From assembly GCA_033977485.1 (NCBI GenBank), contig CM066998.1:57688274-57752273 (forward strand): a stretch of DNA of 64,000 nt, read 5' to 3'. The stretch is from Hydrangea macrophylla (taxonomy: Eukaryota; Streptophyta; Magnoliopsida; Cornales; Hydrangeaceae). The notes beneath the pieces were generated by a model. That model did no database searches and had not been told where the DNA came from. It saw nothing but the letters and a program-made list of their open reading frames with translations. The position numbers were made by a program, and so were the translations under genes. This document shows, one piece after another, positions 17,177-64,000 of the stretch. The number at the start of each line of letters is the position of its first letter. Positions within the stretch are counted from its first letter, which is position 1.

Positions 17177-18328
17177 AAAAATTAACACATTATATAGACC
17201 ACAAAGTCTACAAATTAGTTGAACCTTAACCTAGAACACAACGTTACAAAAGGGACCCATTGGTGTTTTTCCTCACGTAAAAATAGGTAAATGTTTTTTA
17301 AAAAAATTACCACTTAAACTATTAAATAGAGATATTAATATATAGACCATTATATTCACTGTCATGTCTCGACGTAGCATAAATATGGAAAGCATTTAAT
17401 TTCTTTATAAACTCGTAAGTCTCGACAATTTGAATGATCAATTCCGTCCCAAACGTCGAACAGTATAATAATTTAAAACAAAGTAAGAGCAATCAAGGCT
17501 TACAAAATTTTACCAAATTAATAATTATTACAATACGTAATTGTCTAAAGGCACAACCCGCCTTGAAGCAAAATAATATTCATTACAGTCATACTTATTA
17601 CAAATTCAGTTCATTAACTAAAACAATAATTTAAAATAGTTTCTCTTCATGAGCAGCTGTTCTGAATTAGCATAGTCGTACGGGCCAGCCTGATTATAAC
17701 CTGAAAAGCCTATACACGAATGTTTAGGGCACATCAACGCCGTCAGCTTATGAAGCTGGTGAGTATCAAAAACATGTACTCATAATGTAAGACATACTCA
17801 CTGTAGACACCCCGATTTTGACCAAACGTCAAATCTAGAGATTGGTTACCTCTCAAAGACCGATGATGACGATGACCGGTGACATTCGAAGATCTTCCAA
17901 GAAATTCAAAATCTTCTAGATGTTTTTCAAACTTAAAATTGCAAAATTGAAAATAAAAGAGGAGAGGATTTGGGTATTCGGGGGAAACTCGAACGTTGAA
18001 GAACATGTGAAGAAGTCAGCCCGAGAATCCGCTAAAAATATATATATATATATATATAAGATATGAAAGAAAGTCTTGAAAAGAAAATAAAAAATAATAA
18101 AAAAGGAATTTTGAAACAAAGAGGATTTTTGAAAAAAAAAGAGAAAAGAGAAAGAGAGGGGAAATAATACATTTAGAATGCATGTTTTGGATGTATTCTT
18201 AATGGAATATATTACAAATACAAGTATTTTAACATAATTCGTCAATAATTAAGCTTAGGTTAATGTATATGTTGAAAATTAAAAAGTAGGGCAAAATTCA
18301 GTTAGCCCCGGCACGCGATACAACCGGC

Positions 18329-18408
18329 GGCACTCACTGAGTGCCTCTTGGCATTCAGCGAATGCCGCCTGGCATTCAGCGAGTGCCGCCCGGCACTCAG
18401 CGAGTGCC
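18329..18408. repeat. Four palindromes in a 21-bp tandem array in the solo LTR
   Basis: Four 17-base palindromes start at 18329, 18350, 18371 and 18392, an exact 21-base period. They are GGCACTCACTGAGTGCC, GGCATTCAGCGAATGCC, GGCATTCAGCGAGTGCC and GGCACTCAGCGAGTGCC. Each can form a 7-bp stem. Changes in one arm are sometimes matched in the other (CACTC/GAGTG versus CATTC/GAATG). The array lies about 118 bases upstream of the TATA box. Confidence 0.9.
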
Positions 18409-18525
18409 AGGCGGATGCCGTCGTTTGCCGCTGGCTGTAACAGACTGCTTTTCTCACATGTTCTAGAAGAAAACTTTGCACATGGGTTTCCACCCGAATT
18501 TACCCATTTAACCTTGAATTGGTGG

Positions 18526-18536
18526 TCTATATAAAC
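18526..18536 (+). promoter_or_regulatory. TATA box of the solo LTR
   Basis: TCTATATAAAC is a strong plant TATA match. It is followed within about 60 bases by purine-rich sequence that could be the start of the LTR R region. Confidence 0.6.
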
Positions 18537-21500
18537 AAACTTTCATCTTCATTTTTGATATACTTGAATATACTTGAATCAACACACACACATATACTTG
18601 AAATTAGAGAGAAATACAAGAATCATATAGAGAGAATTGAGAAGAAAAGAGAAGTTTTCTTGAAGAACTTGAAGAATTTTAAGAAGAACTTGAAGATTTT
18701 GGAAGAGCTTCACAAAGATAGAAGAAATCCTTGAGGTCTTAGAGATAACCTTTCAATCACTTAATAGAATTAGGCAATTCAATCACAAATTCATAGTTCT
18801 AGGATCTTTACACATTTTCAAAATCTCTCTTCTTATCTCATTTCATCACACACCACATAGAATTTGTGATTGAATCTCATGATAATTCACTAGTTTGGAT
18901 CTAAATGGACCTTGGATTTAAATGAATTGGGTTGGTTTCAAAGAGTTTGTTCTCTTGATTTCTCTTGAGTAAACTTTGATTTCTAAATTTCAATTTTTCT
19001 TTGAAGATTCACAAATTTTTGTGTACATTTTCCATTGAGTCTTTCTTTTTTGTTTGGTTGATCCTTTGATCTCCTATGATCTTATGACTCATATGGAGTT
19101 TAGGGTTGATCATGGCCATATCTACACATAGTTGGTGAGATACTAGTATCAACTCATGACAAGGATCTATTTACTATGAATCTTATGGAATTCATACTAT
19201 ATTCCATGGAGATTAGAGTAGATATAAACTTCATTTAATCTCCAAGGACCATTAACTTGATAGGAGAATAAGTTGACTCTAGATTCTTCCATGATCATGT
19301 ATTTGAGAGAAGAATTGGATGTAGATTTTCATAGTCTATATTTAAAATAAGTAAGACCTTAGGATTTTCTTGATAGATCTCCAACTATGAGATCTATGAT
19401 AAGAATCCATCAAGGTTAAATCTATGAACATCTTCCTATGTCATTAATTTTTCCCAATAATCACAACCATGCTTGGTTCTAGTCCTTTGTAGGATCATGG
19501 ATCAAGTTGGTTTTAAGATATGAACATTAATTCCATATTGATGCAGTGAATCCTTAAACCTTCTGTGATCAAAGATTTTTCATAAAATCATGGTCCATTG
19601 GAATGGGATGAGACCAATTGGAGAATGTTCATAACTCATATGAGTACCTCTGTGATTGTTGTTTTGATAATATTCCATACTTAGGATGGTTTGGTCTTAT
19701 GATTTCCAAGTAAGCAACTCTCTGTCCAAAATTTCAGAACAGCAAACCGGTTTTAAAATTGATAGATCAGAGCTCTAACCAAGTTTTCATGACCTCCAAT
19801 AATTTTTTCTAAGAACCTTAATGTGTTAGGAAGGTTCCCTAAAAAGAATGAAGCAATTCGGATTTGTTTGCTATTTTTAAAAAATCATACAAGATCTCTG
19901 GACAGAGAGTTGCAAAATCCTGAGTGAGGTCTAGTATTTTCCGTATTCCCGGAGAGCTAACCGTTGAAACCTTGATTTTCTTTTTGGGTTAGAAACTAGA
20001 CTCACAGATGCATAACATATCCAAAAATCATTAAGATCCAACCGTTGGAAGTATTTTATTCCTATTTTTGAACGTCTGGTCTGCTCTCTGTAATTCATAA
20101 AAAACTGCTACTGTTTTTGTCTAATCTTATTTATTTCAACTTAAATGGTTCCCTAATGTCTTGGGACCCAAATCATGTTTTGAATAATGATAATTTAGCT
20201 TAAATCCAGAGGCTAAGTGATCCAAATTAGTGAATAAATCCATGTTTTATTCTTGTTCACATTCATTCATTCATGTACATCAATGCTTATGATTAGAACT
20301 AGCTATTGAATAAAGTTGGATTTCATGCTTAATAGATCTAAGCTAGAGAATTGGGATTGATTTTTTGATATCATATTATTATGTGAAGCATGTGGACTAA
20401 TCTTTGTTTTGTAGCGCTTTGAGGTACAATTTCTCAACCCTTCTCTAGTTCAATTTACTTCATTGATTTTAATTGATTTCCGACTCCATGTGCGACACCT
20501 TAGCTTAGGTTTTGCCTTATGTGAGTTAGAGACCTTTTCTTAGGCTTTGTATTTTGTGTATGCATTGCACGTTTCCATTTCGCAGCTGGATCCCGGGTGA
20601 GTTCTCCAGTTCCTTACTTGCACATCATGATGATTGCTAGTTGAATTATGTGACTTATGAATGATATTTTACCGTTAGCAATTTTACACCATTTCCAACA
20701 TGCTTGTGTTATGTATACCTATATATGTATTAATTGAGGGCATGCTTAGATTAATAATTTGATTAAAAAGGATGTTGAGTAGAGGCCTATCGTGAGATAG
20801 GATGAAAAGGGGTGTTTTAGTCCCCCGGACTCCTTCCCCTTTCATTCCATAATCCCCGGACCCAGTTTATCTTTGGTTTCGCAAAAGATCAGTTTGCTTT
20901 AAAATGGTTTCTTAATTTTCCTTTTAAAAAATTAAGTGGCGACTCTTTGAAATTTAAAAAATGTTTTACAAAAGTGGGCCCAAATGCCGGCATCCACAAT
21001 CTAAAAAGCTGTGGGTAAGGAAAACCTGCGATATCCACACTCACTTACAATTTTCATTTCACAGTTTCGTTATTCAACGAATTAGAAACATAGTATGAAT
21101 TCAAAACGATAATGTCATAATTTCCAATCCATTAAACATGTGACTATGCATGGTACAATACAACCATTCTCATCTCGCCAACTCTTTTCTCTTGACAACA
21201 CATCATCCCACTCTCACACACCAGTATCTTGAAACGCTAAGGTGACTACACTTTAAGTACAGGGGTACCCGGGAGTGTCAAATTTGCCTCACACTTTATC
21301 ACGGGGTACCAGGGAGTGTCCAATTGCCTTACACTTTAGCCATAGCACGTATGCCAGGGAGTGTCCCATAGGCCACACTTTAGCACTAGCATAGGTGTCA
21401 GGGAATGTCTAAGTCGGCGTTACACGTACACTTTAGCGCTACCATGGGCGCAAGGGAGTGTCCAATTTTTGACACCGTCGTATTTCAAAGATACTCTAAG

Positions 21501-22211
21501 CCGTGTTCTCAAACCATCACACTTTAGTACACAAGTACCAGGGAGTGTCCAAAACACAATCTCATCCACTTACTCTTTCCACACTGACCATCACTCACTA
21601 TGCATGTAAACTTGACTCCACTTGTATGTCATATAACAATATTGTAAATTATTGATCAAAAGTAACGACAACGTATACGCGAGAAAGTCAAGTCCTTTAA
21701 TCTTTCTTTTCACATTTTCTTCATTGAAGGTATTACACCTAATTAAAATATGATTATTACGAATTAAAACAACTCTATCCGGAAAAGTCAATCGTTGACC
21801 TAGGAAGGCCAAAATGGCTAAGTATAGTAAAAAAAAAGATTTTCGATTCAAGAGTTTAAAAGTCCCGCGAATAGTTCATATATATCCCTATATATCAATT
21901 ATGAATTTTAAGATTTTAAAAAGGAAAAGAACTTAGTAAAAATAATGCCCCAATATCACACACTATGCAAAAATCGAAAATTTTGCCTTCGAAGGAAAAG
22001 TTGACTTTTTATCTATCAGGAATTGACTTTTGAAAGTATTTTTTTTTAATCCAAATGGGGAGTATTTCGTTGATTACATTAATGACTGAAGTAAAAATAA
22101 TAAATGGAAGGGAGAAATGATTTACTTAAATAGCATGGTTGGAGTTAACATGCAGTAAGGGCACAACTGTACTAAGTAGTAAATGCAGCCAGTCATTCTG
22201 TCTTAGAGGGG

Positions 22212-22312
22212 CGTGACCGGTCCTGGTCTTTTAGCGGGACCGGTCCTGATAGTTATGTCGGACCGGTCATAGTCAGGACTGGTCCTGGTCATGTTTTGGG
22301 ACCGGTCCTGGT
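22212..22312. repeat. GGACCGGTCC palindrome array in the second Tekay LTR
   Basis: Five palindromic cores (GACCGGTCC type) at about 22215, 22237, 22261, 22276 and 22299; three adjacent spacings are about 23 bases. On the minus strand the array directly follows a CTGAAACAGGG-like block that also precedes the CGCG array of the first Tekay LTR. It therefore occupies the same LTR position with a different motif. Confidence 0.85.
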
Positions 22313-23639
22313 AGGTCGTCTCGCCCAGGATTTCTCCCCTGTTTCAGCTTTAAAACTAGATTTTGAGCCATTTTAAGTTTCTGATTAAGACATAGCATAT
22401 GATATATGAATCTCTTCGTTTTTACACAAGAATTATGAATACGTAATCGGATTAAACTAATTCGAACCGTAGCTCCCGGGATTTATGTAAAACCGAGAGG
22501 TGACGAAACTTTGATTTTAATACACATCGCAATACAAGATAATTAGGCTCTAAGATTTTATCCAAAGCTTCTATGGACTAAAACCTTTCATAGTCATCTT
22601 ATAAAACTCATTTTGGTTATGTTTTATGAAATCACCATTTTTACACCATAAAAAAAGCTTAAACAAAATTCAATAAACAAATACTAATTTAAGCAGCATA
22701 AACTGTAATTAAGCATGAATTTACATTTCAAGTGAGTTAGCAATACTCACTGAGATTAGAGATGGAAGTATTGTTGAGAAAGCTATTCAAATTAAAAGAA
22801 CCCACTTCAAACTTTTGGCTATGGTGGAGAGCTTTCTCTCTCTAGGAATTTCTGTAAAAACTCTCTATGTCTCTCTCTGTGTTTTAGTTGTAAACTATGC
22901 AGATTGTGAGTTGTGTGTGGTATATATAGAACATCAATTGTACAACTTGGAGCCCAAGAACCATCTTGATCACTCAACAAACTATTTTCTTTTCTAATTT
23001 ACTTAAATCACCGCACCTATATGAGTTGTATACAAATTATACATACGTATACAATCTATGTTTAGTGTACAAGGGTCACTTAGTTTCATATGGGCCAAAT
23101 ATAGGGTGTTTGGCAAAAGTAGCTTATGGTCACACTTCAACACTCACACTAATAGCATTTCCAAACAAGCTTAATCAAATGATTGCTAACATTAAATGGA
23201 TATAAAGCATAAGTCATGTCTGATTGATGGGGAATCCCAATCTATGAGAGTTCAAACGCGGCGCGGACAATTTTGAATATAAACTGGCATTTTTGCGGCG
23301 CGGTGGTCACCACAAAAATGCATAAAATTCATATTAACGTAAGAAATAGTTTTCCGGCTAAATGAAAATAAAGTTTGAGTCCAAAGTAAAAAATTTTACC
23401 GTTTTGAAATGCAGTTTTGAAATTCACGTAACAGTTATTATCAGTCTTATAACGAAAAGTCAGTTGTTGGAACAACAACATAGGTATGCTTAGATATGAA
23501 ATCACTGTTTGACCCCAATTAAAAAGTTTCTATTGAATAAAGCAAGTAATACTAATTAAAGTAAATTTGGAAATGAAAAATAGAAATAAATTGAAATTAC
23601 AGGTTGTTACATCCTTCCTCCCTTAAACAGGATTTGGCC

Positions 23640-26019: not shown

Positions 26020-26024
26020 AACAT

Positions 26025-26310: not shown

Positions 26311-26437
26311 AGTTGTGGCCCCGAACCACATAATAATTTCTCATATACATATATCTACAGTAAATGTATTGGGATATATGCTAATTAACCAACTATATCT
26401 AAAAGTTTGCATCACCTCAGTAAAATGTGGACACTGA

Positions 26438-26879: not shown

Positions 26880-26885
26880 CCCCCC

Positions 26886-26916: not shown

Positions 26917-26930
26917 GTTTAATATATATA

Positions 26931-48424: not shown

Positions 48425-49635
48425 ATGTCAAAGGCTACTGGTATTGGTAAAATTGTTCCTTTTAGTTTCTGCAGCAACAATTTTAAGACGATTTTTACAT
48501 CTGCCATGGAATCTTCAATGATCTCTGTTACCCATGACCTCAACAAACCCTTCAAATTTGAGGGCCTTCACTTTAAACGGTGGAGGATGAAAATGATGTT
48601 TTTCTTAACTACGAAAAAATTGCAATCTGTTTGTCTTTCTGAAAAACCCACTATTTCTGAAAATCCCACTGTTGCTCAAATCAGAGAGTCTGACGTATGG
48701 AATGAAAATGATTTTCTTTGCAAAAACAATATTTTGAATGGACTCTCTGACAGTCTTTATGACTATTATGCAAAGTGTGATTCTGCAAAAAAAAGTTTGG
48801 GATGCCCTTCAGAAAAAATATGACACTGAAGAAGGTGGAGCAAAGAAATTTGCAGTCAGCAGTTATTTGAAATATCAAATGACGGATGACAAATCTGTTG
48901 AAGCTCAATCCCATGAGCTGCAACAAATTGCTCATGAGATAATTTCTAAGGGCATGGATTTAAATGATCAGTTTCAAGGTGCTGTCATTATTGACAAGCT
49001 TCCCCCAAGTTGGAAAGATTTCAAAAATATTTTGAGACACAAAACCAAAGAATTTTCATTGGAAAGTTTGATTACTCACCTTTGTATTGAGGAGGAGGCA
49101 AGAAAACAAGATTTAAAAGAACAGGTTCTTGTTGTTTCCAAGGAAACAACAAGAAACCTCAAAATTTTTCTAAAAACAAAACCTCTGTTGTTCTGAAACC
49201 ACCTGCAAAAACTATGAAGTTTCAAAATCGAAATCAGAACAAGAACCGCAACAACAACAAGAATCAGAATCCGAAGCCAAATCAGAATAGGAACATACCC
49301 CCCTCAGGAATAAATGAAGCTGGACTGTTTGTTTGCTACAATTGTGGTAAACCAGGTCATATGGCTCGAAACTGTAGGAATCAACGACGAGTTGCTCCCC
49401 AAGCAAATCTTGCCGAAGAGCAGCTCGTTGCTATGATTTCCGAGGTCAATATTGTTTGTGGATCCGAGGGGTGGTGGGTAGACACTGGCGCCTCTCGCCA
49501 TGTTTGCTATGACCGTGACATGTTCAAATCTTATTCCGAAGCTAAGGACAAGAAAGTGCTGTTGGGAGATTCCCATACCACTACTGTTGCTGGTATTGGA
49601 GAGGTTGAATTGAAGTTTACTTCTGGAAAGACTGT
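48425..49635 (+). pseudogene. Ty1/copia gag and start of protease, cut by the Athila insertion
   Basis: Gag of the UBN2/copia type in three frames: from 48425 (MSKATGIGKIV; LNKPFKFEGLHFKRWRMKMM), shifted near 48790 (KKVWDALQKKYDTEEGGAKK to 49196), then shifted again from about 49205 with an Asn/Lys/Gln-rich linker, a CCHC knuckle CYNCGKPGHMARNC (about 49336) and the protease active site WVDTGASRHVC (about 49481). The frame stops being copia at 49636, where the Athila LTR begins. The rest of pol should lie beyond the right edge. Confidence 0.85.
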
Positions 49636-49890
49636 TGCAAAGCGGGGGTATTTGTAAAATACAACCGCGCTAAAAGGAAGAATTGTATTAGTTTATATCA
49701 CAACTTCCCGTTTTATCTGCAATATGCATTGCAAGGCTAATTTTCATACAATATGATTAATCTATGATCAGTTGTATTGTTTTAGCTGTTGTTTGTGCAG
49801 ATCACAGCTGTGTGGACTAAACAGATGAACATCAGGATAAAGGGAATGCTGGAATGAAAACAAAAGAAGTCAAAGCTGGAATTTGGAGTT

Positions 49891-49999
49891 CGATCGATCT
49901 AACCCAGTTCGATCGATCGCGCGTTCGATCGCTTAAAGAGTGTTGAAGCGCTTGAGGCTTAAGGGTTCGATCGATCGAGAGCAGTTCGATCGATCGAAC
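49891..49999. repeat. TTCGATCGATCGAA palindrome cluster 1 in Athila 5' LTR
   Basis: About four to five units of CGATCGATCG type. One is a perfect 16-base palindrome (GTTCGATCGATCGAAC, 49984-49999). The cluster ends about 70 bases before the TATA-like box. Confidence 0.85.
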
Positions 50000-50498
50000 G
50001 TGGTATTTCCAGTAACATTCGTGTGCGCAGCAGATGCGGGTTTTTAACCCTAGTTTCTTAGGTTTTCTTATATATATATGTGTATTGTATACGTCCAGGA
50101 GGACGCCCACATTTTTAGTTTTCCAGTTTTAGAGAGAGAGATAGAGGTTTTGTGTTTGTTTTGTAGGTTTTTCATTGAAGTTTACTTTGTGCATTGGATT
50201 TCTATAGTTTAATACAAGTACTCTGCGTTCCAGGTTATTTATATATTGTCCATTAACATTCTGCACTTTGTAGTCGTAGTTTAATCGTTCATCTCGTAGT
50301 ATTACATGCTAGATACTTTCAAATCCATAGTTTTTTATAGTTTCCATGAAAAACTCGCAACCAAACAAGGCTTTGATGTTTTCTTACGTTAAATATCAAT
50401 CTGTGACACTCCAGACGATGTCTGAGTAGTCCCAGGTTGGGAGAACACGATGAAACAGTGATCTCCAGCCTCTGCCATGCAGCAGAATAATCGCTGTG

Positions 50499-50624
50499 TT
50501 CGATCGATCGGAGTTAGTTCGATCGATCGAACCAGAGACAGTCAAGCGATCGAAGCTATTTCGATCGATTGAGGGATGAAGGTCTTCGATCGATCGAAAG
50601 CGCATCGATCGATCGAACTCCCTG
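50499..50624. repeat. TTCGATCGATCGAA palindrome cluster 2 in Athila 5' LTR
   Basis: Five to six units, including perfect 16-base palindromes such as 50517-50532. It repeats at 63480-63605 in the 3' LTR. Confidence 0.85.
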
Positions 50625-51277
50625 ATTCTTGAGGATGTTCCCTGCAGTATTCCGGACCTTTTGTTTTAGGATTTGTTATCATTCTGTCCCAAAAATGCTC
50701 AGTTTGTCAAAACAGTTTTTAAAACTAAGGCCCTAAGGCATATTCTTTCAATACATTTTGCAAACCACCTTCAATACTAACACCATTGAGAGTGCGAGTC
50801 TTAACTATTGGATTAAATCGCTTTCACGTATTTTAACTTACCTGTGATGATATGGTCCCGGTCATGAAAGGGCCATGGATTCTCCATCTTTAGAGGAATA
50901 CGGAAAACTGTGGGTAATGTACTCCTTCGTGCTTCAAGGCAAATGCATGGTAGAGAGTTAGATTACTGTGGATTCGTGTAATCCCAACACTTTCTTCTTA
51001 AAGTTAAACATCCTAATTTAGTGTGCTGTTTTAACTAGCTAGTTAGATCGTTAATTTAATCTGAATTATTTTAGTAATCTTAGTTTGTGGAACTTTGTGT
51101 TCCGCACCATTGTTTAATCTTATTCATTTTATTTTGCTTTCTTTTGAGGTTAGTCTAATTCAATAGGTCAACACCTTCCCTGTGGGATCGACCTGGTCTT
51201 ACCAGTTACTACTTGCACGTCCACCTACACTTGGGTGTTGCACAAGAGCGCACAAGATTTTTCACGTGTCAAGTTTT

Positions 51278-51410: not shown

Positions 51411-54400
51411 ATGTCCAATAATTCTATTGAAGGAATTTTTGGAAATCCATTCTACCGCTCTGACTCTGATAGTTCCATCAACCCGATAGCCACTCCAACT
51501 GAATCAATGGATGATCATCAGAGTGAAAATGGTGACAATGATGTGGTGCCAATTGATGAGGCGCTACGTCCTCTTTGCGATCTCATGCAACCAGAACATG
51601 CACCTACGCCCTCTTGCATTCAAATCCCACCGCATAATGGAGAATTTCAGTTTCGCAATGGGATGATTCAACTGCTTCCCACTTTTCATGGGATGGAAAG
51701 TGAGAAGGCGTATTTACATGTCACTGATTTCGAGGATGTTTGCAAAACATTCTCGCAAAATTGTCCTAGGGAGGTGACGCATTTAATGTTATTCCCTTTC
51801 ACTTTGAAAGATAAAGCAAAGGCGTGGCTCCACTCCCTCAAACCGAATTCAATTTTCACCTGGCATGCGATGAGCACCGCGTTTCTATAGAAATTCTATC
51901 CTACTCGCATGACCACAGACCTTCAGCGTCAAATCAATTACTATAAACAAAAGAGCAATGAAACCTTCACACAAGCGTGGGAGCGTTTCAAAGATTTGCT
52001 TCTCTCATGCCCACACCATGGGTTTGAGAAATGGCGAACTATCAGTTTCTTTTATCAAGGATTGAATGGTGAAACAAAGAAGTTGGTGGAAACAATGAGC
52101 TCTGGACCATTTCTGCGTAAAAACACTGAAGAGGCTGAAGCCCATTTCGAATGGTTAGCTGAATACGCTCATGAATGGTCAAATTCTGACACTGTCTCAC
52201 GCTCACAGATATCCTGTGTAGAGGAGAAAAGCCTATACCAGCTAACCAGTGAAGATCACCCCATGACTAAGTATGCAGAGCTAGCAAAGAAGGTAGAGGA
52301 GTTAAGCATGAAAGGAGAGAGCTCTAGGCAAGTCATGCCTGAGGAACCATGTGGCACATGCAACATGTTTGGACATACAACTCAATATTGTCCTAATGTG
52401 CCATATTTTCAAGAGCAAGCCCCTATAGAGATGAATGCCATGCAAGGTTTTCGAGGGGCGGGGAATTCCAATAATAACTTTCAAAGTAACAATAGATGGA
52501 ATCACCCCGGTTTTGATTGGAGAAATAATGCTGGGACCCAAAATCAATATCAACAACAGCCCTACAACAACAATCAATATCAAGGGCAAAACAATAGGCA
52601 GTCCCATCAATACAATCAAAACAGAACCAACAATTACAACCAAGCTCAACCCTCCAATGCACCACAAACCAATACCTATGTGCCACCGCAGAAGAAGGTA
52701 CAAGAAGAAGAGCCACTTGCTAATGCCAATCTAACACAGCAACTCATCCAAATGATGAGTAGAATGTCTGCCACGTTAGAGAGGATAGATGCACGGCAAG
52801 AAGGTTCAGGAGGAACATTCCCTGCCCAACCACTTTCGAACCCCAAGGGACATAACAATGGTCCTAACAATCAAGAACATGCTAAAGCTGTGACTACACT
52901 GAGAAGTGGAAAAATCATAGAGAAAAGCATGCCTCTGTCCACTCCCGAAGTGTACAAAGAGGAGGAAGTGGTGGATGAAAAAGTTGAGCAACCATCTACT
53001 CGAGAGGAGGAGCCGTCTACTAATGATGAACCAATAAAGGCAAACATTGAAGCTCCTAGAGTAGAGGAAGAAGTTGAGCGAAGGCCTGGAAAGGAGTCTG
53101 TTAAGGAGGAACCACCAAAATGCCCTTTTCCTGCACCTTATCCTCAACGGTTGAAGAAACCCAAGAATGAGACAAAGAATCAGGAGTTTCTGGAATTGTT
53201 TAAACAAGTTAAAATTAACCTTCCACTCCTAGATGCTATCAAGCAAGTGCCGGCCTATGCTAAGTATCTCAAAGATCTATGCACGGTCAAGAGGAGGCAA
53301 AGCGTGAAGAAACATGCTTATGTCGCGTGCCAAGCCAGTGCTATCATTCAAAATGAGTTGCCTCCAAAACTCAAAGATCCCGGTACACCTACTGTCTCAT
53401 GCAGAATTGGGAATCAAAAGATAGATAACGCACTCCTCGATTTAGGAGCAAGCGTGAACCTGCTGCCATATTCAGTCTATAAACAGCTAGGGTTGGGTGA
53501 ACTCAAACCCACCCGAGTCGCTTTGCAATTGGAAGACAGATCTGTGAAGTACCCTAGAGGAGTGTTAGAGGACGTCCTTGTCCAAATAGACTCTTTTGTA
53601 TTTTCGGTTGATTTCGTGATATTGGACACAGAACCTGTGTCTAATCCTGGTGCACATATCCCGGTTATCTTTGGACGCCCATTCCTCAACACCATTGATG
53701 CCACAATCAAGATTAGAAGTGGCATCATGACTATCGTATTCGGGAACATGACATTGAATGTCAAGATCTTTTCTAATCCCCGACCTGAAGAATACGATGA
53801 TGAGGAAGAAATTCATTATATAGACACGGTCATTGAAGATGAAGTTGACTTGGTCGACTACAAAGATCCTTTGGAAGTCGTGATGACTCAATTTGGTGAT
53901 ATCTATCAGCCTGCTGAGTCAACTCCATTGGATGCTGACCTGAACCAGACGTGTCTTATGATGGATACGATAGAGGAGGATAGAGCCGATTGCATGTGGG
54001 TAATGCCATATGAACAACTGCCTCCTAAAACTAAGTTGGCAATGCCTTCTAGCTTTCAGTTTCTGGAATTAGAGTTAAAGGAGCTACCCAAAGAGCTAAA
54101 ATACTCATTCTTAGGGACTGGAAAAACCTATCCTGTGATCATTTCATCTGCTTTAACTCATGAACAGGAAGGTAGGCTAGTGCAAATGCTGACCAAGCAT
54201 AAAGATGCTATGGGATGGACAATTGCTGACCTCAAAGGCATAAGCCCATCCATATGCACGCATAAGATATATCTGGAGGAAGACGCTAAACCCTCAAGGC
54301 AAATGCAAAGGCGTCTGAATCCCAACATGCAAGAAGTAGTTAAAAAGGAAGTGCTTAAACTACTTGATGTTGGGATGATTTATCCGATATCTGACAGTCC

Positions 54401-56972
54401 TTGGGTTAGTCCTACCCAAGTTGTTCCAAAGAAAGCAGGCATAACGGTCATCCCGAACAAAGATGGTGAATTGGTACCAACACGTGTCCCCACTGGATGG
54501 AGGATGTGTATTGACTACAGGAAGTTGAATACTGTGACCCGAAAAGACCATTTTCCGCTGCCATTCATGGATCAAATGCTAGAACGAGTGGCGGGTCACA
54601 AGTATTACTGCTTTTTGGATGGATACAGTGGATATAATCAAATTGAAATTGCTCCTGAAGATCAGGAGAAAACCACGTTCACTTGTCCATTTGGTACATT
54701 TGCCTATCGACGAATGCCGTTTGGCTTATGTAATGCACCGGCTACCTTTCAGCGGTGTATACTAAGTATATTCAGTGACATGGTCGAAAACATCCTTGAA
54801 GTATTCATGGATGATTTTTCAGTGTTTGGCCATAGCTTTGAAGATTGCCTCAGCAATCTCGAGCAGGTTTTAATGCGGTGTGAGGACAAACACCTAGTTT
54901 TGAATTGGGAAAAGTGTCACTTTATGGTGACCAAGGGAATAGTCCTCGGCCATATAATCTCCGATGAAGGAATCCAAGTGGATAAGGCAAAAATCGACAT
55001 AATCTCAAATCTACCTGTCCCCCGTACAGTGAGAGACATCCGTTCATTCTTGGGGCATGCGGGATTTTATCGTCGGTTTATCCAGAACTTCAGTGCAATC
55101 TCTCGACCCCTTTGTCAACTTCTTGTCAAAGATGCACCCTTCGAGTGGTCAGAGAGTTGTCAAAAGTCCTTTGAGGATCTAAAAGAGCTCCTCACCTCCG
55201 CACCTATAATACAGGCACCCGATTGGAGTTTGCCTTTTGAATTAATGTACGATGCTAGTGATTACGCCATTGGCGCGGTCCTAGGCCAGAGAAAGGACAA
55301 TAAGCCACATGTGATATACTATGCCAGCCGAACTTTGAATGAAGCTCAAATGAATTACACTACTACTGAAAAGGAGCTGCTGGCAGTAGTATTTGCCCTG
55401 GACAAGTTTAGGTCTTATCTGATAGGGTCACCAATCGTCTGTTTTACAGATCATTCGGCCCTCAAGTATCTTTTGTCAAAGAAAGACGCTAAACAACGGC
55501 TTATTCGCTGGATACTCTTACTCCAAGAGTTTGATTTGACAATCAAAGATAAGAAAGGAGTAGAGAATGTGGTTGCGGATCATTTGTCCCGGTTGACCTT
55601 TATCGACAACACTGAATCCCAATCCATTAAGGATGAGTTCCCAGACGAACAGCTACTGGCAATAAGTAGTCTGCCTTGGTATGCTGATATTGTAAACTAC
55701 CTTGTCACGGGTGAAACACCGAATCATTGGTCAAACCAAGACAGAAAACGGTTCCTCTCGTTCGCGCGTCATTTCTTCTTCGATGACCCATACCTTTTCA
55801 AGTACTGTGCTGATCAGGTTATCAGGCGCTGCGTCCCCAATGAGGATATAACCGTAATTTTAGCATCATGCCATTCTGAGGCATGTGGTGGCCACTTTGC
55901 GTCACAAAAGACCGCACAAAAAGTCCTACAGAGCGGTTTTTACTGGCCCACAGTTTTCAAAGATGCATATTCCTTTTGCAAGACATGCCAACGCTGTCAA
56001 AAGCTTGGAACTATTTCTAAAAGGAATTCTATGCCTTTAACCCCTATCATCACAATTGAGATATTTGATTGTTGGGGCATAGATTTTATGGGCCCATTTC
56101 CCAAGTCTAATAACTGTGAATACATACTCCTTGCTGTAGAGTATGTGTCAAAATGGGTAGAAGCGATACCAACGAGACGAAATGACCACAGAACGGTCAT
56201 GTCCTTTCTAAGAGAGCATATCTTGTCTCGTTTTGGAACTCCGCAAGCTTTACTAAGTGACCAAGGCAAGCACTTCTGCAACAGGCCTTTGGAGTCACTT
56301 CTCAAGAAATACGAAGTCCACCATAAAATCGCTCTTGCCTATCATCCACAGTCGAATGGGCAAGCAGAATTGGCTAACCGAGAAATCAAGCATATTCTCG
56401 AAAAGACGGTTAGTTCCAATCGAAAAGACTGGGCATACAAGCTGACCGACGCTTTGTGGGCATACTGTACTGCTTACAAGACGAATCTAGGTATGTCCCC
56501 GTATAGACTGGTCTACGGGAAAGCTTGTCACCTTCCTGTTGAAATTGAACATAAAGCTTATTGGGCGACACGCTCATTGAACTTTGATATTCAAGAGGGA
56601 GGTCAGCTACGTAAACTCCAACTTGCAGAGCTAGAGGAAATACGACGAGATGCGTATGACTCTGCAAAGTTGCATAAGGAAAGGTTGAAGGCTCGCCACG
56701 ATCGTACGATCTTTCGTAAATCATTTGAGCCGGGGCAAAAAGTTTTGCTGTATGACTCTCGCCTCCACCTTTTCCCAGGAAAGCTCCGTTCCCGTTGGAC
56801 AGGCCCGTTCATTGTAAAAACTATTTTTCCACATGGGGCGGTTGAGATCGTCAATCCAAAGAACGATGATTGTTTCAAGGTCAATGGCCAAAGATTGAAA
56901 CCGTTCTTGGAGAACTTCCACACTGAAGTTGAGCACATCCAGCTGGATGAGCCCAGCTATGCTCCCACTTAA
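51411..56972 (+). pseudogene. Athila gag-pol polyprotein, one in-frame TAG
   Basis: A single frame of 1,854 codons runs from ATG 51411 to TAA 56970-56972, broken only by TAG at 51888-51890 in the gag capsid region. Domains: gag capsid (51640-52230), CCHC knuckle [14 protein letters not shown] (about 52350), Asn/Gln-rich linker (52450-52660), Glu/Lys-rich linker, aspartic protease with [12 protein letters not shown] (about 53440), reverse transcriptase with FMDDFSVFG (about 54804), RNase H with [14 protein letters not shown] (about 55245), and integrase with HHCC finger (55870-56000), GIDFMGPF (about 56078), LSDQGKHF (about 56255) and HPQSNGQAE (about 56345). All catalytic motifs are intact. 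No chromodomain is present, as expected for Athila. The stop may be a recent mutation; readthrough is possible but unsupported. Confidence 0.93.
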
Positions 56973-58058: not shown

Positions 58059-59094
58059 TGCTGCATTTCAGTTGTTTCTGTTCATTTCATTTTTTGTTTA
58101 TTAACTGGAGTGTAATCCTTGACAGAATTTATTGGTTTTAGTTTTATTTTTGGTTTTCTTTAGTTAAATAAGGTTTTAAACACAGTTGGGGGTAATAATG
58201 TTGCAATTTGGATGCAATTATAAAGTTTTATTTCTATATAAATTGCAATTTTCTATTCTGAGGATGAATTTCTGTCCTACATGCCTGTACATCAACTGCT
58301 TTTCAGTCTCTCTGCATGTCCAGATTTGTTTCTGATAGTTGGGGGTGATGTGGTTCATGTTCCCCAGTGAATTCTGAAATTTTTGTGTTCGATCGATCGA
58401 ACTCATTCCGATCGATCGAAACCTGAATGTTCAAGCGCTTGCATTTTCTATTCAATCGATTGAGGGATTTGCTTTCGATCGATCGACCATAGTTCGATCG
58501 ATCGAACGCAGCTTTTAAACGAAGAGTCATCAGAACACCTCTTCAGTTCCCTTACTCTCACACACTCAAGCGCTCAAACTCATAGGAGGAGGGCGACTCG
58601 GCGAATTTTGCGTCATTGCACATCAATTAGACGCCTAGATCACCCCTCCATTCATCCTCATCCTCACCTGATCATCTCCACCTCACACCGTGTGTTTCCA
58701 CACCGAGGTAGGCCCCACGGGTTTTTGTTATTTTTTTTTTCTTCTTTCTTTTTCTTGTTGTTAGAAAAATCCCAAGGGGGTGTCCCCTTGGTCTTAGATT
58801 TTCACTACCGGATCCTTTCATTGTTTCTTTTTTTCGATTCTGCGATCGCTGCACATCGCTGTGCTCGATCGCTTTAACTGACTTCGAGCGATCGAACAGG
58901 CACTGTTCGATTGATCAAACATAGATGAAGCGATCGAAGAATATGAAAGTTCGATCGATCGAATATTGTTTAAGCAATCGAAGCCCCACAGTGCGATCGA
59001 TCGAACCCAGTTCAATCGATCGAACTCAAGCAGTGGCAGTTTTATTTCTTTTTCTCCCTGTTCTTATCCGTGTCATGTTGTGTTCTATTTTCAG
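58059..59094. repeat. Inter-ORF region with LTR-like palindromes and PPT-like motifs
   Basis: A non-coding spacer between ORF 2b and ORF 3. It has AGTTGGGGGT at 58184 and 58337, perfect GTTCGATCGATCGAAC palindromes at 58387-58402 and 58492-58507, and a second cluster of related units at 58860-59030. The palindromes are the same as in the LTR clusters. A T-rich tract (58730-58765) follows. Small open frames here are not convincing. Confidence 0.75.
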
Positions 59095-59104
59095 GGCTGC
59101 CACG

Positions 59105-60481
59105 ATGAATCCAGTGACGGGCTACCATAAGTCCAAGCCCCTCAGCCTTATTATACCAGATCCGGTACCCGCACATGGGTTCCGGAATGACGAGGACAGG
59201 CTATGGTACGAGCGGCATTTTCAGACGCGGATGGTGATGATCGAGCGCCCTATTGAGTACGTCTGGACAGAGAGCCCATGGTTCCTGACACGGATCCGCT
59301 CTATGCCCCACTGGTTCCATCTCCTTTCATTGGCCAAGAGTGTAAATCTGTCCTGGATACGAGGTGCGTGCGCGACGATGATCCGCGACCCGGTTGCACC
59401 ATTCACATATCATGCCTTCTTCCGGAGTCGCCTGTTCATCATCAGTCCCGCTACCGTTTCAGCCGCGTTGGGGGTACCAGAGGTACCAGATTATGTTTGT
59501 CCCTACAGGCCTGATGCACCTGAGACCCTACCATCCACCATTATCCGTGATCTCACTGGAGGCGCCGTTCCGTCTTGGGATGGCGATGCTTTGATTGAGG
59601 ACTACTTTCTCACTGATGGCTACCATATGATCCACCTGGTCCTCAGTAACTGCCTCCTAGTGACCTCCTATCGAGAGAAGATCGCGGCTTGGTATGCGCG
59701 AGTCTTATTTGCAGTGGGGACGGGACAGTCGGTTTGCATACCACGCCTCTATATTGACTTTATGGTCCACCCCACCCGTTTTATCTCGTCCAAGAAGCAC
59801 CTGAAGGGTGCTTGGGCTATTCACAGGGTTATGGCTGATGCCGGTTTCCCTGAGCTTGCTGGAGATGATGTTCGCCCTTCCCCCCATCGTTTCAGCGAGG
59901 CAGCGGCTCGCCGCTCCGACGGTCAGAAGAGAAAGCGAAAGGGAAAAGGGAAATCGCGGGTGAGGGGGAAGAAGAAGAGGCGTGGTGGGACGGACACGGA
60001 GGCAGGAGCTTCAGGGACACCCACTGAGGTGGAGGAGCTTGATTCCGATGATGATGAGGATGATCCGGTTGCTGCGGTTCGGCAGTTTGAGCTGCGACAG
60101 CGGTCGCAGACTCAGGCCCAGGGAGAGTCTTCTTCCTCTGTGCCTCTCCCGACAGTTCACGAGCTGCTATTGGAGGAGAGAGAGGCCAGGATTAGACTTG
60201 AGGGCCGGATGGACCATCTGCAGACCTTGCTGGAGTCCATATTGGTTCATATTGGGGTCGATCCGGCTGTTCACTCTACTCAGCATCCATCGATGGCCCC
60301 GTCTGCACCACCTACTACTGATCCATCATCTACTACTGCCCCGGATTCTGCTACTGCCGATCCTTTTTCCTCCGCTGCTGCCGATCCATCTGCTGCTGCC
60401 CCTGCTACTACCCTGTTGCCACCTGCTCCCATCGACATCCCTTCTGATGTAGCTGATGATGCGCCGTCCGGTGTCGATTAG
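59105..60481 (+). CDS. Athila ORF 3, env-position protein with plant transposon-protein-like domain
   Basis: 458 residues from ATG 59105 (MNPVTGYHKSK), chosen because it follows an acceptor-like TATTTTCAG by ten bases; the open frame extends upstream to 58925 only through palindromes and a T-rich tract. Residues about 25-250 form a globular domain; SNCLLVTSYREKIAAWYARV followed by LFAVGTGQSVCIPRLYI resembles the 'putative plant transposon protein' family (PF20167) found in Athila-like elements. Then a basic, nuclear-signal-like stretch (about 274-293), an acidic stretch (about 308-320), a probable coiled coil (about 345-385) and a Pro/Ala/Ser/Thr tail. No signal peptide or membrane segment is seen, so a viral envelope role is unlikely. 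Intact. Function unknown. Confidence 0.7.
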   Translation: MNPVTGYHKSKPLSLIIPDPVPAHGFRNDEDRLWYERHFQTRMVMIERPIEYVWTESPWFLTRIRSMPHWFHLLSLAKSVNLSWIRGACATMIRDPVAPFTYHAFFRSRLFIISPATVSAALGVPEVPDYVCPYRPDAPETLPSTIIRDLTGGAVPSWDGDALIEDYFLTDGYHMIHLVLSNCLLVTSYREKIAAWYARVLFAVGTGQSVCIPRLYIDFMVHPTRFISSKKHLKGAWAIHRVMADAGFPELAGDDVRPSPHRFSEAAARRSDGQKRKRKGKGKSRVRGKKKRRGGTDTEAGASGTPTEVEELDSDDDEDDPVAAVRQFELRQRSQTQAQGESSSSVPLPTVHELLLEEREARIRLEGRMDHLQTLLESILVHIGVDPAVHSTQHPSMAPSAPPTTDPSSTTAPDSATADPFSSAAADPSAAAPATTLLPPAPIDIPSDVADDAPSGVD

Positions 60482-62604
60482 TTTTAGTTGGGGAGGTAGT
60501 GTTTATGTGTTTTTGGTTAGTTATTGTACTAATTTTGGTTATGGTTGTGGTTGGTTGGACATGTTGGTTGTTTTGGTTGGACTATTTGGTTGGTTGGTTC
60601 TGTATGGACATTATTTATCACTATTTTTATTTTATTCTGTTCCTATTACAGTGGTTTCGATTGTTTGGATCATGGTTTTTATCGTGTTACTTTTATCTAT
60701 TGATCCTGGTTGTTTTGGAGATTGTGTTCTACTTTTCTATGCTAGGTTGCTATGCTTGCTATCATCAATTTGCTCCATACAGGTGATACCCATCTATTGT
60801 ATTTATTGAAATCAACTTCTGGGGACTTTGCTGTTTTCAGTTGGGGGTAGGAGATAATAGATAGGTATACACCCGTAATGATCAGGTTTTGCACTTGGAT
60901 ATGTTTTAAATTTAATGAGAACACAGTCTATTAAAATTTTGAAAATTTTGAAAATTGTTTTTATTATTGAATCGTATTGATAGAATAACTCTGAATAATC
61001 TCTCCAGCTTGTTAATTAGACAATGACACATTTGTAGTATTCTCATCTTTTTATGGATTAAATCCACGCGTTTTCTGTATCACTGAAATGAATTGCATTT
61101 GTGAAGCTATTATGTACCCAATACTTTTACGCACTAATTGGCAGCTATGTAGAAAACCTGAAAGTTGAGTTAATATGAATATCGTGCGAAAAGAACAAGT
61201 AGGGGAAGCTAATAACCCTTTGTGAGCTATTGAGCCAATCGTCATTTCTGAGGGGTTCTCATACATTGTCGAATGGTTTTTCTTGCATATACTTGGTGAA
61301 TTCGTTGTTAAGTCTCAATTTTCTTTAAAAGTTTTGATTGCTTGTTAGAGGAGAACGTTCAGGATTTACCAATTACACTCAATGAACACTTAAGTGCTAA
61401 AAATTGAAAGTTGAGAAAATGATTCAAGCCATCGTTTACCCATTCTTTTACCTGATATAGCTTTCACTTACATTCATTGAATTGTTTCATCCCTGATCCC
61501 ACACCAATTAAATATTTCCAATGTAATCACAAGAATCCAAATCCTTGATCTGTACCTTGACCTCATTGAGCCGTTTGATATATTTGCTGAGAATGAGTCA
61601 TCAAAGTATGTGAAATGGAAGGAAGTAGTTGTGGGACGTTCTATTTACATATAAAAAAATGAAAAAAAAAATGATGAATGAAGGAGAAGAGAAAAAGAGC
61701 ATATGAAATGAATGGGAGATTGGGTGGAGAAAAGAATAAAGAATAAAAAGATAAGTTGAAATTCCATCACATACTAAAAAGCACACTCTTCTCTACAACA
61801 CTCCCACCTACTAAATAAAAGCCGCAATTCAAAGTCTTGAAGATTCTCATCAATTGATTTGAACATGGAAGTGTGAGTTGAGTTATCCACGGTATTTCGC
61901 TCCTCTAGTAAGTAGTGTTCCATTCATGAGACTATACACTCTTAAATGTCCGTTTTTCATAAAGTCAAGTATGAAAGCATTAGCACTTAGAATATCATCC
62001 TTATCAAAGCTTTCATACGATGTGCGATCATTGTAAAGCAAGTTTCTGAGAGACGTTCTTTTTTAGTGTAACCAATGTGAGAATTGAGCTAAAACTGCAA
62101 GTTTTTCAAGGTACAATAGTCTAGATAACTCTTAATAGGGTTGGACGCATGGTTGTTAAATTCACACACACACGGGTGCATGATGGTAATACATTTGTTA
62201 TATTTTACTTGGTGATATAGGGGAGCATGTGGATCTCTTTCATGGGTTGATAGAGGATAGTATATTATTGTAGAGCTAAATTAACAGTTTAATGCAAGGG
62301 GGAATTCTACAAGTTATTCTTAATCTTTTTGAGCTTAAAATTGGAGAATTTTGTGGGTATATTCACTGCAAACCCTCACGAGACAACACTCGTCCACTAG
62401 GGGGAACCTAGGGGTTTAACGGCTTGTTGCATTCGCTAAATGCAACCGCGATTCCTGCGAAAGTGAGTTAGGATTTTTCTTTGTATCTTAGTTTAGGTTG
62501 TTTTTAGTTTTCCTTTGTTTTCTTAGTCGTTGTAGTATTAGTTTAGGAGTTTTTATTTTATTTTATTTTATTTTCGCTTTATCGCTAGGGACTAGCAATA
62601 AGCT
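60482..62604. other. Athila 3' non-coding region
   Basis: About 2.1 kb with no credible ORF. It begins with AGTTGGGGAG (60486) and has a T/G-rich stretch, an acceptor-like CTCCATACAG near 60780, and TGTTTTCAGTTGGGGGT (PPT-like, 60839-60848). The rest is AT-rich, with a TTTTA-type simple repeat near 62550-62570. Confidence 0.65.
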
Positions 62605-62616
62605 AGTTGGGGGTTG
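62605..62616 (+). promoter_or_regulatory. Polypurine tract of the Athila-type element
   Basis: AGTTGGGGGTTG directly before the 3' LTR start at 62617. The same AGTTGGGGGT occurs three more times in the 3' part of the element. Confidence 0.8.
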
Positions 62617-64000
62617 TGCAAAGCGGGGGTATTTGTAAAATACAACCGCACTAAAAGGAAGAATTGTATTAGTTTTTATCACAACTTCCCGTTTTATCTG
62701 CAATATGCATTGCAAGGCTAATTTTCATACAATATGATTAATCTATGATCAGTTGTATTGTTTTAGCTGTTGTTTGTGCAGATCACCGCTGTGTGGACTA
62801 AACAGATGAACATCAGGATAAAGGGAATGCTGGAATGAAAACAAAAGAAGTCAAAGCTGGAATTTGGAGTTCGATCGATCTAACCCAGTTCGATCGATCG
62901 CGCGTTCGATCGCTTAAAGAGTGTTGAAGCGCTTGAGGCTTAAGGGTTCGATCGATCGAGAGCAGTTCGATCGATCGAACGTGGTATTTCCAGTAACATT
63001 CGTGTGCGCAGCAGATGCGGGTTTTTAACCCTAGTTTCTTAGGTTTTCTTATATATATATGTGTATTGTATACGTCCAGGAGGACGCCCACATTTTTAGT
63101 TTTCCAGTTTTAGAGAGAGAGATAGAGGTTTTGTGTTTGTTTTGTAGGTTTTTCATTGAAGTTTACTTTGTGCATTGGATTTCTATAGTTTAATACAAGT
63201 ACTCTGCGTTCCAGGTTATTTATATATTGTCCATTAACATTCTGCACTTTGTAGTCGTAGTTTAATCGTTCATCTCGTAGTATTACATGCTAGATACTTT
63301 CAAATCCATAGTTTTTTATAGTTTCCATGAAAAACTCGCAACCAAACAAGGCTTTGATGTTTTCTTACGTTAAATATCAATCTGTGACACTCCAGACGAT
63401 GTCTGAGTAGTCCCAGGTTGGGAGAACACGATGAAACAGTGATCTCCAGCCTCTGCCATGCAGCAGAATAATCGCTGTGTTCGATCGATCGGAGTTAGTT
63501 CGATCGATCGAACCAGAGACAGTCAAGCGATCGAAGCTATTTCGATCGATTGAGGGATGAAGGTCTTCGATCGATCGAAAGCGCATCGATCGATCGAACT
63601 CCCTGATTCTTGAGGATGTTCCCTGCAGTATTCCGGACCTTTTGTTTTAGGATTTGTTATCATTCTGTCCCAAAAATGCTCAGTTTGTCAAAACATTTTT
63701 TAAAACTAAGGCCCTAAGGCATATTCTTTCAATACATTTTGCAAACCACCTTCAATGCTAACACCATTGAGAGTGCGAGTCTTAACTATTGGATTAAATC
63801 GCTTTCACGTATTTTAACTTACCTGTGATGATATGGTCCCGGTCATGAAAAGGGCCATGGATTCTCCATCTTTAGAGGAATACGGAAAACTGTGGGTAAT
63901 GTACTCCTTCGTGCTTCAAGGCAAATGCATGGTAGAGAGTTAGATTACTGTGGATTCGTGTAATCCCAACACTTTCTTCTTAAAGTTAAACATCCTAATT
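62617..64000 (+). repeat. 3' LTR of the Athila-type element (cut by window end)
   Basis: 1,384 bases visible, collinear with 49636-51018. About six differences: five substitutions and one extra A near 63849. The palindrome clusters are unchanged. Confidence 0.93.

Follow-up and report, generated by a model that had tools for sequence, protein, structure and literature searches.

The window, meaning the whole 64-kb stretch of DNA analysed here, contains a Tekay-1 element, a Tekay-2 LTR interrupted by a solo LTR, and an Athila element, and each of these four LTR families carries at least one array of short, repeated dyads. The first-pass annotation had placed one array type in each family, and all four are present where it put them, as found with a palindrome scan and, for the solo LTR, a dyad test; it had overlooked two further Athila arrays lying between pol and the 3′ LTR. 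The features, in window coordinates, are as follows.

3690..6649, plus strand: Tekay-1 5′ LTR, 95.6% identical to the 3′ LTR at 12241-15222
4394..4401, plus strand: TATTTAAA, the likeliest TATA-box candidate in Tekay-1, 651 bp before the array
5045..5303, plus strand: Tekay-1 5′ LTR array of TCGCGCGA-type units, in blocks spaced 96 bp
13590..13863, plus strand: Tekay-1 3′ LTR array
17360..23611, minus strand: Tekay-2 LTR, interrupted by the solo LTR; ends set by eye
17802..21039, plus strand: solo LTR inside the Tekay-2 LTR, with a 5-bp duplication, CTCAC; unclassified lineage
18329..18408, plus strand: solo-LTR array, four units of GGCAYTC-NNN-GARTGCC at 21-bp steps
22212..22312, minus strand: Tekay-2 array, five GGACCGGTCC-type units with spacings of 23, 23, 16, and 23
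22921..22929, minus strand: Tekay-2 TATA-like box, CTATATATA; in the sense direction, the array follows 621 bp later
49633..51269, plus strand: Athila 5′ LTR, ends approximate; primer site at 51278
49888..49999, plus strand: Athila array 1, made of GTTCGATCGATCGAAC units, with the TATA-like box 69 bp further on
50068..50079, plus strand: Athila LTR TATA-like box, the sole such site in the LTR by the pattern used
50498..50618, plus strand: Athila array 2, spacings 19-23-19-25-19, starting 430 bp after the TATA-like box
51909..56972, plus strand: Athila gag-pol ORF (Gag, protease, RT, RNase H, and integrase families), searched in three pieces
58387..58507, plus strand: Athila array 3, internal, in register with array 2 and preceding the post-pol ORF
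58863..59025, plus strand: Athila array 4, internal, spacings 19-23-19-25-19-23-19
58925..60481, plus strand: Athila post-pol ORF, as listed
62869..63599, plus strand: 3′ LTR copies of Athila arrays 1 and 2

Tekay-1 shows a CGTTA target-site duplication and a TGGTATCAGAGC primer site, both read from the sequence, and three ORFs between its LTRs matched protease, RT, integrase, and chromodomain families; in these three scanned ORFs, of eight listed, only pol-type families and the chromodomain were matched. Tekay-2 was assigned by homology of its LTR to that of Tekay-1, and the solo LTR lacks coding sequence. In Athila, the pieces of the gag-pol ORF matched Retrotrans_gag, RVT_1, RNase H, and integrase, and positions 49636-51018 and 62617-64000 are 99.6% identical. 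The post-pol ORF likely starts at the in-frame ATG at 59105 (residue 61), such that array 4 overlaps the first part of the listed ORF and precedes its likely start. The sole family match of this ORF is a weak one to PF20167 (25.2 bits, where the cut-off is 45), and a protein search yielded no homologue at E 0.001 among 7998 scored candidates.

The first-pass annotation had proposed a comparison of repeated palindromes with dinucleotide-shuffled sequence, which was carried out over the 64-kb window by searching for perfect GC-containing 8-mer palindromes with at least three copies within 300 bp. The scan returned 16 rows at nine places—5057-5256, 13602-13863, 22215-22307, 49890-49997, 50500-50616, 58389-58505, 58951-59023, 62871-62978, and 63481-63597—against a mean of 0.005 clusters and a maximum of 1 in 200 local dinucleotide shuffles. 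All nine lie in a Tekay LTR, an Athila LTR, or the interval between Athila pol and the 3′ LTR, and the window holds 39 copies of TCGATCGA, where 0.30 would be expected. The solo-LTR motif, with its 3-bp centre, is missed by a perfect 8-mer scan; its array contains five dyads with arms of at least 7, compared with a mean of 0.04 and a maximum of 1 in 300 local shuffles. A motif-independent dyad scan, stricter than the palindrome scan, found four clusters against 0.15 expected (40 shuffles): the solo-LTR array, which is the densest, both LTR copies of Athila array 2, and Athila array 3. It missed Athila arrays 1 and 4 as well as the Tekay arrays. The arrays are real, with the dinucleotide and dyad shuffles ruling out a chance origin by a wide margin.

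The strength of the dyad symmetry differs between families. A dyad test of single consensus units gave no significant result for any array (six array units, p 0.08-0.95), because consensus units merge variants. With the real units, a column-permutation test gave p values of 0.0005-0.0125 in all four families, although picking and centring the units in palindromic register biases this test in favour of the arrays; in Tekay-1, the outermost unit in each LTR was also left out. The first-pass description of all motifs as palindromic needs qualifying for Tekay-1, whose palindromy is weak: TCGCGCGA is perfect in 4 of 11 units of the 5′ LTR and 6 of 12 of the 3′ LTR. Expansion of a (CG)n or (TCGA)n simple sequence is possible for Tekay-1, but fails for the solo LTR, Tekay-2, and the 19-bp steps described below. 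The 25 CpG-richest of 1277 segments of 200 bp all overlap Tekay-1 or Athila arrays; segments over the Tekay-1, Tekay-2, and solo-LTR arrays pass thresholds of GC 0.5 and CpG o/e 0.6, as do many others (e.g., 36401-38851), and those over the Athila arrays have a CpG o/e above 1.3 with GC below 0.5. No LTR family in the 64-kb window can be defined with confidence as free of arrays, and there is thus no negative LTR control.

An earlier statement that the arrays mostly precede a TATA-like box fits the solo LTR (by 119 bp) and Athila array 1 and fails for Tekay-1, Tekay-2, and Athila array 2. In the solo LTR, the preferred box at 18527 is one of four TATA-like words, another of which, at 18051, precedes the array. 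The Tekay-1 and Tekay-2 boxes (4394, and 22929 on the minus strand) lie at most about eight columns apart in the LTR alignment; the latter is the single TATA-like site in the scanned part of Tekay-2 (21040-23610), where a TATA-like word inside the Tekay-1 array, at 5220, has no counterpart. Since these best candidates lie 620-650 bp before the arrays, the Tekay arrays are probably transcribed leader.

The two Tekay LTRs constitute a natural experiment, with a single LTR architecture holding two unrelated palindromes. They are homologous on both flanks of the array, and the array begins 35 bp (Tekay-1) or 28 bp (Tekay-2) after one conserved word; the two arrays share no 7-mers, compared with 81 shared in the adjacent block of non-palindromic direct repeats. 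The motifs of the four families, claimed earlier to be unrelated, indeed have no common core, and a single common motif or obvious factor was rejected on this ground. The occurrence of unrelated Tekay arrays at one homologous place points to selection on dyads, and the first-pass proposal that dyad symmetry plus repetition is the selected property gains from both persisting while the motif changes, in the Tekay pair as well as among the Athila arrays.

A neutral origin, in which slippage, gene conversion, or template switching by reverse transcriptase builds or homogenises inverted repeats in tolerant non-coding DNA, is unlikely in our estimation. It would fit the faster divergence of the Tekay-1 arrays—three indel events and 13 substitutions per 246 aligned bp between the 5′ and 3′ copies, versus four and 60 per 2694 bp in the rest of the LTR—as well as the many kinds of tandem array in the window and the resemblance of Athila arrays 2 and 3 to mutual duplicates. 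However, it does not account for unrelated palindromes at one spot in both Tekay LTRs, and in the column-permutation test for dyad symmetry only 2 of the 14 other tandem arrays have p below 0.05. Slippage or duplication alone would, moreover, keep the spacers as well as the dyads, whereas three of the five Athila spacer pairs agree only at chance level and the dyads and layout are kept.

Across the four Athila arrays, exactly 19 bp separates successive units in 11 of 20 steps, with the remainder being 23 (four), 25 (two), 16, 42, and 44 bp, and 19-bp steps pair 22 of the 24 units found by consensus in the 5′ LTR and internal region. Between arrays 2 and 3, dyad-core bases agree at 75 of 84 positions—an agreement partly built in, with units found by likeness to the consensus and the compared unit at 58429 positioned by eye—whereas only 4 of 19 spacer bases agree in the three pairs whose spacers match in length; the other two of the five pairs, unequal in length, were left out, and one of them shares its first four bases. 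Arrays 2 and 3 seem to be duplicates, and their spacings are therefore not independent. Some Athila units are degenerate but hold phase, combining half-sites of the types GATCGAAC and GCTTRA, with five mixed and two double type-B units among 26 (Fisher p 0.15). In array 4, one AB unit and one BA unit can pair mutually. The 19-bp steps point to selection on the dyads, as do the dyads and layout kept between two arrays in which three of the five spacers appear random.

That such selection might concern RNA is the premise of another explanation, which we regard as doubtful: array transcripts would fold into long stems and be diced, turning the arrays into targets of, or baits for, RNA-directed DNA methylation, with palindromy kept for RNA structure or as a costly by-product of regulation. 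All eight folded arrays indeed fold better than their dinucleotide shuffles (z −2.6 to −9.9), and in maize an excess of small RNAs is reported at Sirevirus palindrome clusters in the available text of PMC10760457 and PMC5311732. However, any palindromic array scores high by construction, and folding z-scores were dropped as a discriminator; furthermore, the mixed half-site units disrupt pairing within the unit and yet hold their spacing, and pairing does not require a recurring 19-bp step. A role in dimerisation of genomic RNA, with palindromes pairing two packaged genomes in the manner of retroviral dimer initiation sites, appears more improbable still. Dimerisation sites are typically sequence-unrelated palindromes in the leader, a description that the leader palindromes here resemble, and calculated energies favour the self-duplex over the hairpin for both the Athila unit (−25.9 versus −4.8 kcal/mol) and the Tekay-2 unit (−20.7 versus −0.2 kcal/mol). 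Some arrays are nevertheless upstream of the TATA-like box and others internal, before the post-pol ORF, and neither the recurring spacing nor the CpG density is predicted.

The reading we prefer, with a probability of roughly one half, is that the arrays are cis-regulatory arrays of binding sites for dimeric proteins around promoters, with turnover of motifs between families. In each family, a dimeric DNA-binding protein would bind the array, reading one half-site twice in mirror orientation, with adjacent dimers held at favoured spacings of 19 bp (Athila), 21 bp (solo LTR), and mostly 23 bp (Tekay-2). The arrays would act around the LTR promoter, from upstream or from the leader, and those of Athila would also act around a putative internal promoter for the post-pol ORF; binding would counter silencing by holding the promoter open or active. 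Related families would swap the whole motif through tandem-repeat turnover as their binding protein changes. The mixed half-site types in phased, degenerate units are as expected of protein half-sites, and the published Sirevirus layout, in the available text of PMC2829016, is alike, with dyad repeats preceding both the TATA box and ENV. Against dimer binding stand the absence of one factor matching all four motifs, the location of the Tekay arrays 620-650 bp past the preferred TATA box (odd for a promoter-proximal enhancer), the strong folding of all eight folded arrays as RNA, the palindromy of Tekay-1 being partly expected of any CG repeat, the negative consensus-unit dyad test in every array, and the small number of mixed half-site units. 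A broader proposal, that plant LTR retrotransposons of both superfamilies independently carry dyad arrays as self-identity tags—the recruited protein shielding LTR and internal promoters, an arms race replacing the motifs, and the dimer fixing spacing and symmetry—is speculative and unlikely.

Precedents for several of these properties were sought in open-licence PMC literature, where the titles and abstract openings listed gave no description of such arrays in Athila, Tekay, or gypsy LTRs, and the matches listed for the motif strings contained no description of arrays; none is described in the available text of PMC6911290, PMC10794571, PMC11963269, or PMC5738225. An IMG/VR search with Athila and Tekay RT pieces confirmed no relatives, a doublet-pattern search with the Athila motif gave no match, and that with the Tekay-2 motif matched six GC-rich contigs (63-69% GC), judged unrelated. 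VANDAL elements are DNA transposons. The target arrays of their VANC anti-silencing proteins (Hosaka et al., 2017, PMC5735166; Sasaki et al., 2023, PMC10398659) are, in the text available, also arrays of short motifs in non-coding DNA, upstream and in introns, with fast change of motif between related elements through tandem-repeat formation, and the non-coding arrays of Tekay-1 and Tekay-2 have also diverged rapidly. In contrast, the VANC motif YAGTATTAY is arrayed in a single orientation, the available text of PMC5735166 never uses the word "palindrome", and VANDAL elements are described as encoding their own array-binding protein, which removes methylation. The three scanned Tekay-1 ORFs matched pol-type families and a chromodomain. 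The tandem repeats between pol and the 3′ LTR of Retand (PMC11963269) are likewise family-specific short arrays in a Ty3/gypsy lineage, but lie in the internal region rather than at LTR promoters, and no description of palindromy was found in the available text. A 2016 Genome Research study, as represented in papers citing it, concerns palindrome clusters in the regulatory part of LTRs, with links to small RNAs and rapid evolution, and differs in treating copia elements and in its small-RNA evidence.

The closest comparison is with the RM boxes of Sireviruses (Ty1/copia), an element-specific dyad motif in many copies (Bousios et al., 2010, PMC2829016). As given in the available text of that paper, RM boxes are CpG-dense, vary in motif between elements, and cluster upstream of the LTR TATA box, with an additional cluster upstream of ENV in ENV-bearing Sireviruses. 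The arrays in the window likewise consist of dyads, those of Tekay-1 being the weakest and the consensus-unit test negative; at least eight copies, as in RM boxes, are reached by Athila (24 in the 5′ LTR and internal region) and Tekay-1 (11 and 12 per LTR), and not by Tekay-2 (five) or the solo LTR (four). Two Athila arrays precede the likely start of the post-pol ORF, at most a putative counterpart of ENV, its sole family match (PF20167) being weak and below cut-off. Unlike in Sireviruses, the hosts here, apart from the unclassified solo LTR, are the Ty3/gypsy elements Tekay and Athila, as the RT, integrase, and chromodomain of Tekay-1 and the gag-pol families of Athila attest, and the Tekay arrays come after the preferred TATA box. 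The CGG-CCG core is in none of the four window motifs, and is lacking also in Tnd-1 in the available text of PMC2829016, which describes neither unrelated motifs at one homologous position nor a 19-bp doublet layout. The first-pass suggestion of a module general to plant LTRs, drawn from four families in one window, is in line with the Sirevirus repeated motifs, but the absence of the RM motif from the other copia elements examined in that text argues against full generality. Overall, the arrays are a Ty3/gypsy variant of an RM-box-like architecture with motif turnover. With palindromic promoter arrays described in the available text of PMC2829016 as Sirevirus-specific among the copia elements examined, their occurrence in a chromovirus and an Athila-type element suggests a convergent solution, perhaps to the shared problem of staying transcribed under silencing, and the 19-bp layout of Athila offers a concrete prediction that can be tested with a reporter assay.

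The window is composed of nested LTR retrotransposons, with palindrome arrays in the following elements:

3690-6649 and 12241-15222, plus strand: LTRs of Tekay-1, 95.6% identical to each other (arrays at 5045-5303 and 13590-13863)
about 23611 down to 17360, minus strand: LTR of Tekay-2 (array at 22212-22312)
17802-21039: solo LTR nested inside the Tekay-2 LTR, with the duplication CTCAC (array at 18329-18408)
about 49633-51269: 5′ LTR of Athila, 99.6% identical to the 3′ LTR, which is cut by the window end (array 1 at 49888-49999 and array 2 at 50498-50618, both recurring in the 3′ LTR)
58387-58507 and 58863-59025: Athila arrays 3 and 4, between pol and the 3′ LTR

Tekay-1 ORFs match protease, reverse transcriptase, integrase, and chromodomain, and the primer site 3′ of its 5′ LTR is presumably of the initiator-tRNA type. 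The Athila ORF pieces match gag (divided between two listed ORFs at 51411-51909), protease, RT, RNase H, and integrase. Both element names, Tekay and Athila, were assigned in the first-pass annotation and agree with these matches, which suggest a chromovirus and a gypsy-type element with no chromodomain match, respectively. The fragment hosting Athila contains a zinc knuckle and a Pol beta-barrel domain (49214-49657) and is probably copia-type. Elsewhere, several large inverted and direct repeats occupy 26028-32721, among them 260-bp arms at 31588-32126, 92% complementary with 19 bp between them.

The palindrome arrays are real and non-random. A scan for any GC-containing perfect 8-mer palindrome with at least three copies in 300 bp detected nine places in the 64 kb and no others—two in Tekay-1, one in Tekay-2, four within the LTRs of Athila, and two in its pol-to-3′ LTR region—compared with a mean of 0.005 clusters in 200 local dinucleotide shuffles. 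The solo-LTR array, because its centre is 3 bp, was found instead by a motif-independent dyad count, which yielded four clusters versus 0.15 expected (40 shuffles) and in which it was the densest; this stricter count did not detect any Tekay array, nor arrays 1 and 4 of Athila. Under a harder null, with columns permuted within units and tandem repetition kept, p was 0.001-0.007 for Tekay-2, 0.0005 for the solo LTR and for Athila, 0.0125 or 0.0035 for the 5′ LTR array of Tekay-1, and 0.0005 for its 3′ LTR array, with 2 of 14 other (control) tandem arrays at p < 0.05; the test favours the arrays, since they were chosen for and centred on palindromy and the outermost Tekay-1 unit per LTR was omitted. 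A tandem array at 38595-38865 (31-bp unit, 8.7 copies) gave p 0.008 as a dyad control, but with a low score. No array gave a positive result in a cruder dyad test that used one consensus unit at a time. The 25 CpG-richest of 1277 windows overlap the Tekay-1 or Athila arrays, the usual CpG-island limits also being passed by many other windows and the Athila array windows lying below GC 0.5. All eight arrays folded as RNA were more stable than shuffles (z −2.6 to −9.9), but their palindromy accounts for this. The arrays are probably functional.

Two features are worth following: unrelated motifs at one homologous Tekay site, and a 19-bp layout in Athila. The Tekay-1 and Tekay-2 LTRs can be aligned on both sides of the array, 3907-5010 with 23426-22337 on the upstream side and 5568-6074 with 21596-21134 on the downstream side, and the array starts lie 35 and 28 bp, respectively, downstream of one conserved word, CTGAAACAGGG. 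The two arrays have no 7-mer in common on either strand, as against 30 in the upstream flank and 81 in a nearby non-palindromic direct-repeat block (5574-5970); therefore, the array site has been kept, but not the motif. This second block, present 3′ of the array in both LTRs (5574-5970 and 21220-21600) as GGACACTCCCTGG-type direct repeats ~40 bp apart, is conserved in sequence, unlike the palindrome array. Even between the two LTRs of Tekay-1 itself, sequence change has been faster in the array than elsewhere in the LTR: its 246 aligned bp hold 13 substitutions, versus 60 in the other 2694 bp (Fisher p 0.008), and three indel events fall inside it versus four outside (p 0.016).

The arrays had been described as lying mostly before a TATA-like box, and, as read from sequence alone, this would hold for the solo LTR (119 bp before its preferred candidate) and Athila array 1 (69 bp), but not for Tekay or Athila array 2. 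In the aligned Tekay LTRs, TATA-like boxes at 4394 (Tekay-1) and 22929 minus (Tekay-2) are at most ~8 columns apart, are each followed 3′ by a CA-rich and GA-rich stretch, and precede the array start by 651 and 621 bp, respectively. A second TATA-like word (5220) falls inside the Tekay-1 array, and Tekay-2 has a single such site in the scanned part (21040-23610). Among four TATA-like words in the solo LTR (18051, 18527, 19339, and 20719), that at 18527, CTATATAAA, was chosen by eye as the preferred candidate. In Athila, array 2 begins 430 bp after the sole TATA-like site found.

A scan with the 16-bp Athila consensus (at most five mismatches; six in array 4) gave 24 units, distributed over the four arrays as 5, 6, 5, and 8, and seven occurrences (at most five mismatches) in the remaining window. 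The 20 unit-to-unit steps comprise 19 bp (11 times), 23 (four), 25 (two), 16, 42, and 44, the 19-bp steps joining 22 of the 24 units into pairs. Outside these figures, degenerate units at 49942 and 58429 were added by eye because both fill long gaps, giving a list of 26. Arrays 2 and 3 are in register when unit 58429 is counted. Their cores are identical at 75 of 84 bases, an agreement that arises partly by construction because a single consensus was used to pick out the cores, versus 4 of 19 bases across the three spacer pairs whose members match in length. The remaining two of the five pairs are of unequal length and were excluded; in one of them, both spacers open with GGAT. The informative part of this comparison is the layout kept across mismatching spacers. 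Selection on protein-bound dimers would predict this combination of matching dyads, a recurring distance, and mismatching spacers, but the arrays appear to share an origin by duplication and are not independent of each other. Units are composed of two half-site types, GATCGAAC and GCTTRA; five of the 26 are mixed and two are double type-B (counted by eye; Fisher p 0.15), numbers compatible both with halves that vary together and with halves that do not. Symmetric changes occur at 58452 in Athila (TCAATCGATTGA) and 18350 in the solo LTR (GGCATTC..GAATGCC), and one-sided changes at 18371 and 50559.

Array 3 lies upstream of the post-pol ORF, and array 4 extends into the beginning of this ORF as mechanically listed (58925-60481) but is upstream of an ATG at 59105, the likely start; array 4 would be partly coding if translation began at 58925. 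By eye, the sequence between the two arrays resembles a leader and an intron, with a donor-like GT at 58708 and an acceptor-like TTTTCAG whose last base is 59094. On that reading, the LTR and internal region would share the order array, presumed start, array, ORF. The ORF is not called envelope because its only family match, PF20167, is weak.

Six GC-rich IMG/VR contigs (L001-L006) each contain two GGACCGGTCC-like palindromes ~22-23 bp apart, with similar flanks in L001 and L006, probably a regulatory site without relation to plant elements. Among the matches listed, no open-licence PMC title or abstract opening describes arrays of this kind for the LTRs of Tekay or Athila. Maize work ties such palindromes to small RNAs (PMC10760457, PMC5311732), and VANC target arrays, for which an anti-silencing protein is known, are described as undergoing fast motif turnover (PMC5735166, PMC10398659), similar to that of the window arrays. 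The closest description is that by Bousios et al. (2010; PMC2829016), whose 13 Sireviruses carry repeated motifs that are dyad-symmetric and element-specific, mostly form CpG islands, sit shortly upstream of the TATA box with extra copies upstream of ENV, and were found in none of the other copia elements that the study covered. Athila unit 58452-58463, TCAATCGATTGA, contains the 10-bp core CAATCGATTG of the Sirevirus Tnd-1 motif ACAATCGATTGT (PMC2829016), which may be coincidence. The window arrays look like these motifs, but are set apart from them by the different superfamily, the missing CGG-CCG core, and the location of the Tekay arrays downstream of their preferred TATA box. They represent, in Ty3/gypsy elements, a variant of a feature known from copia.
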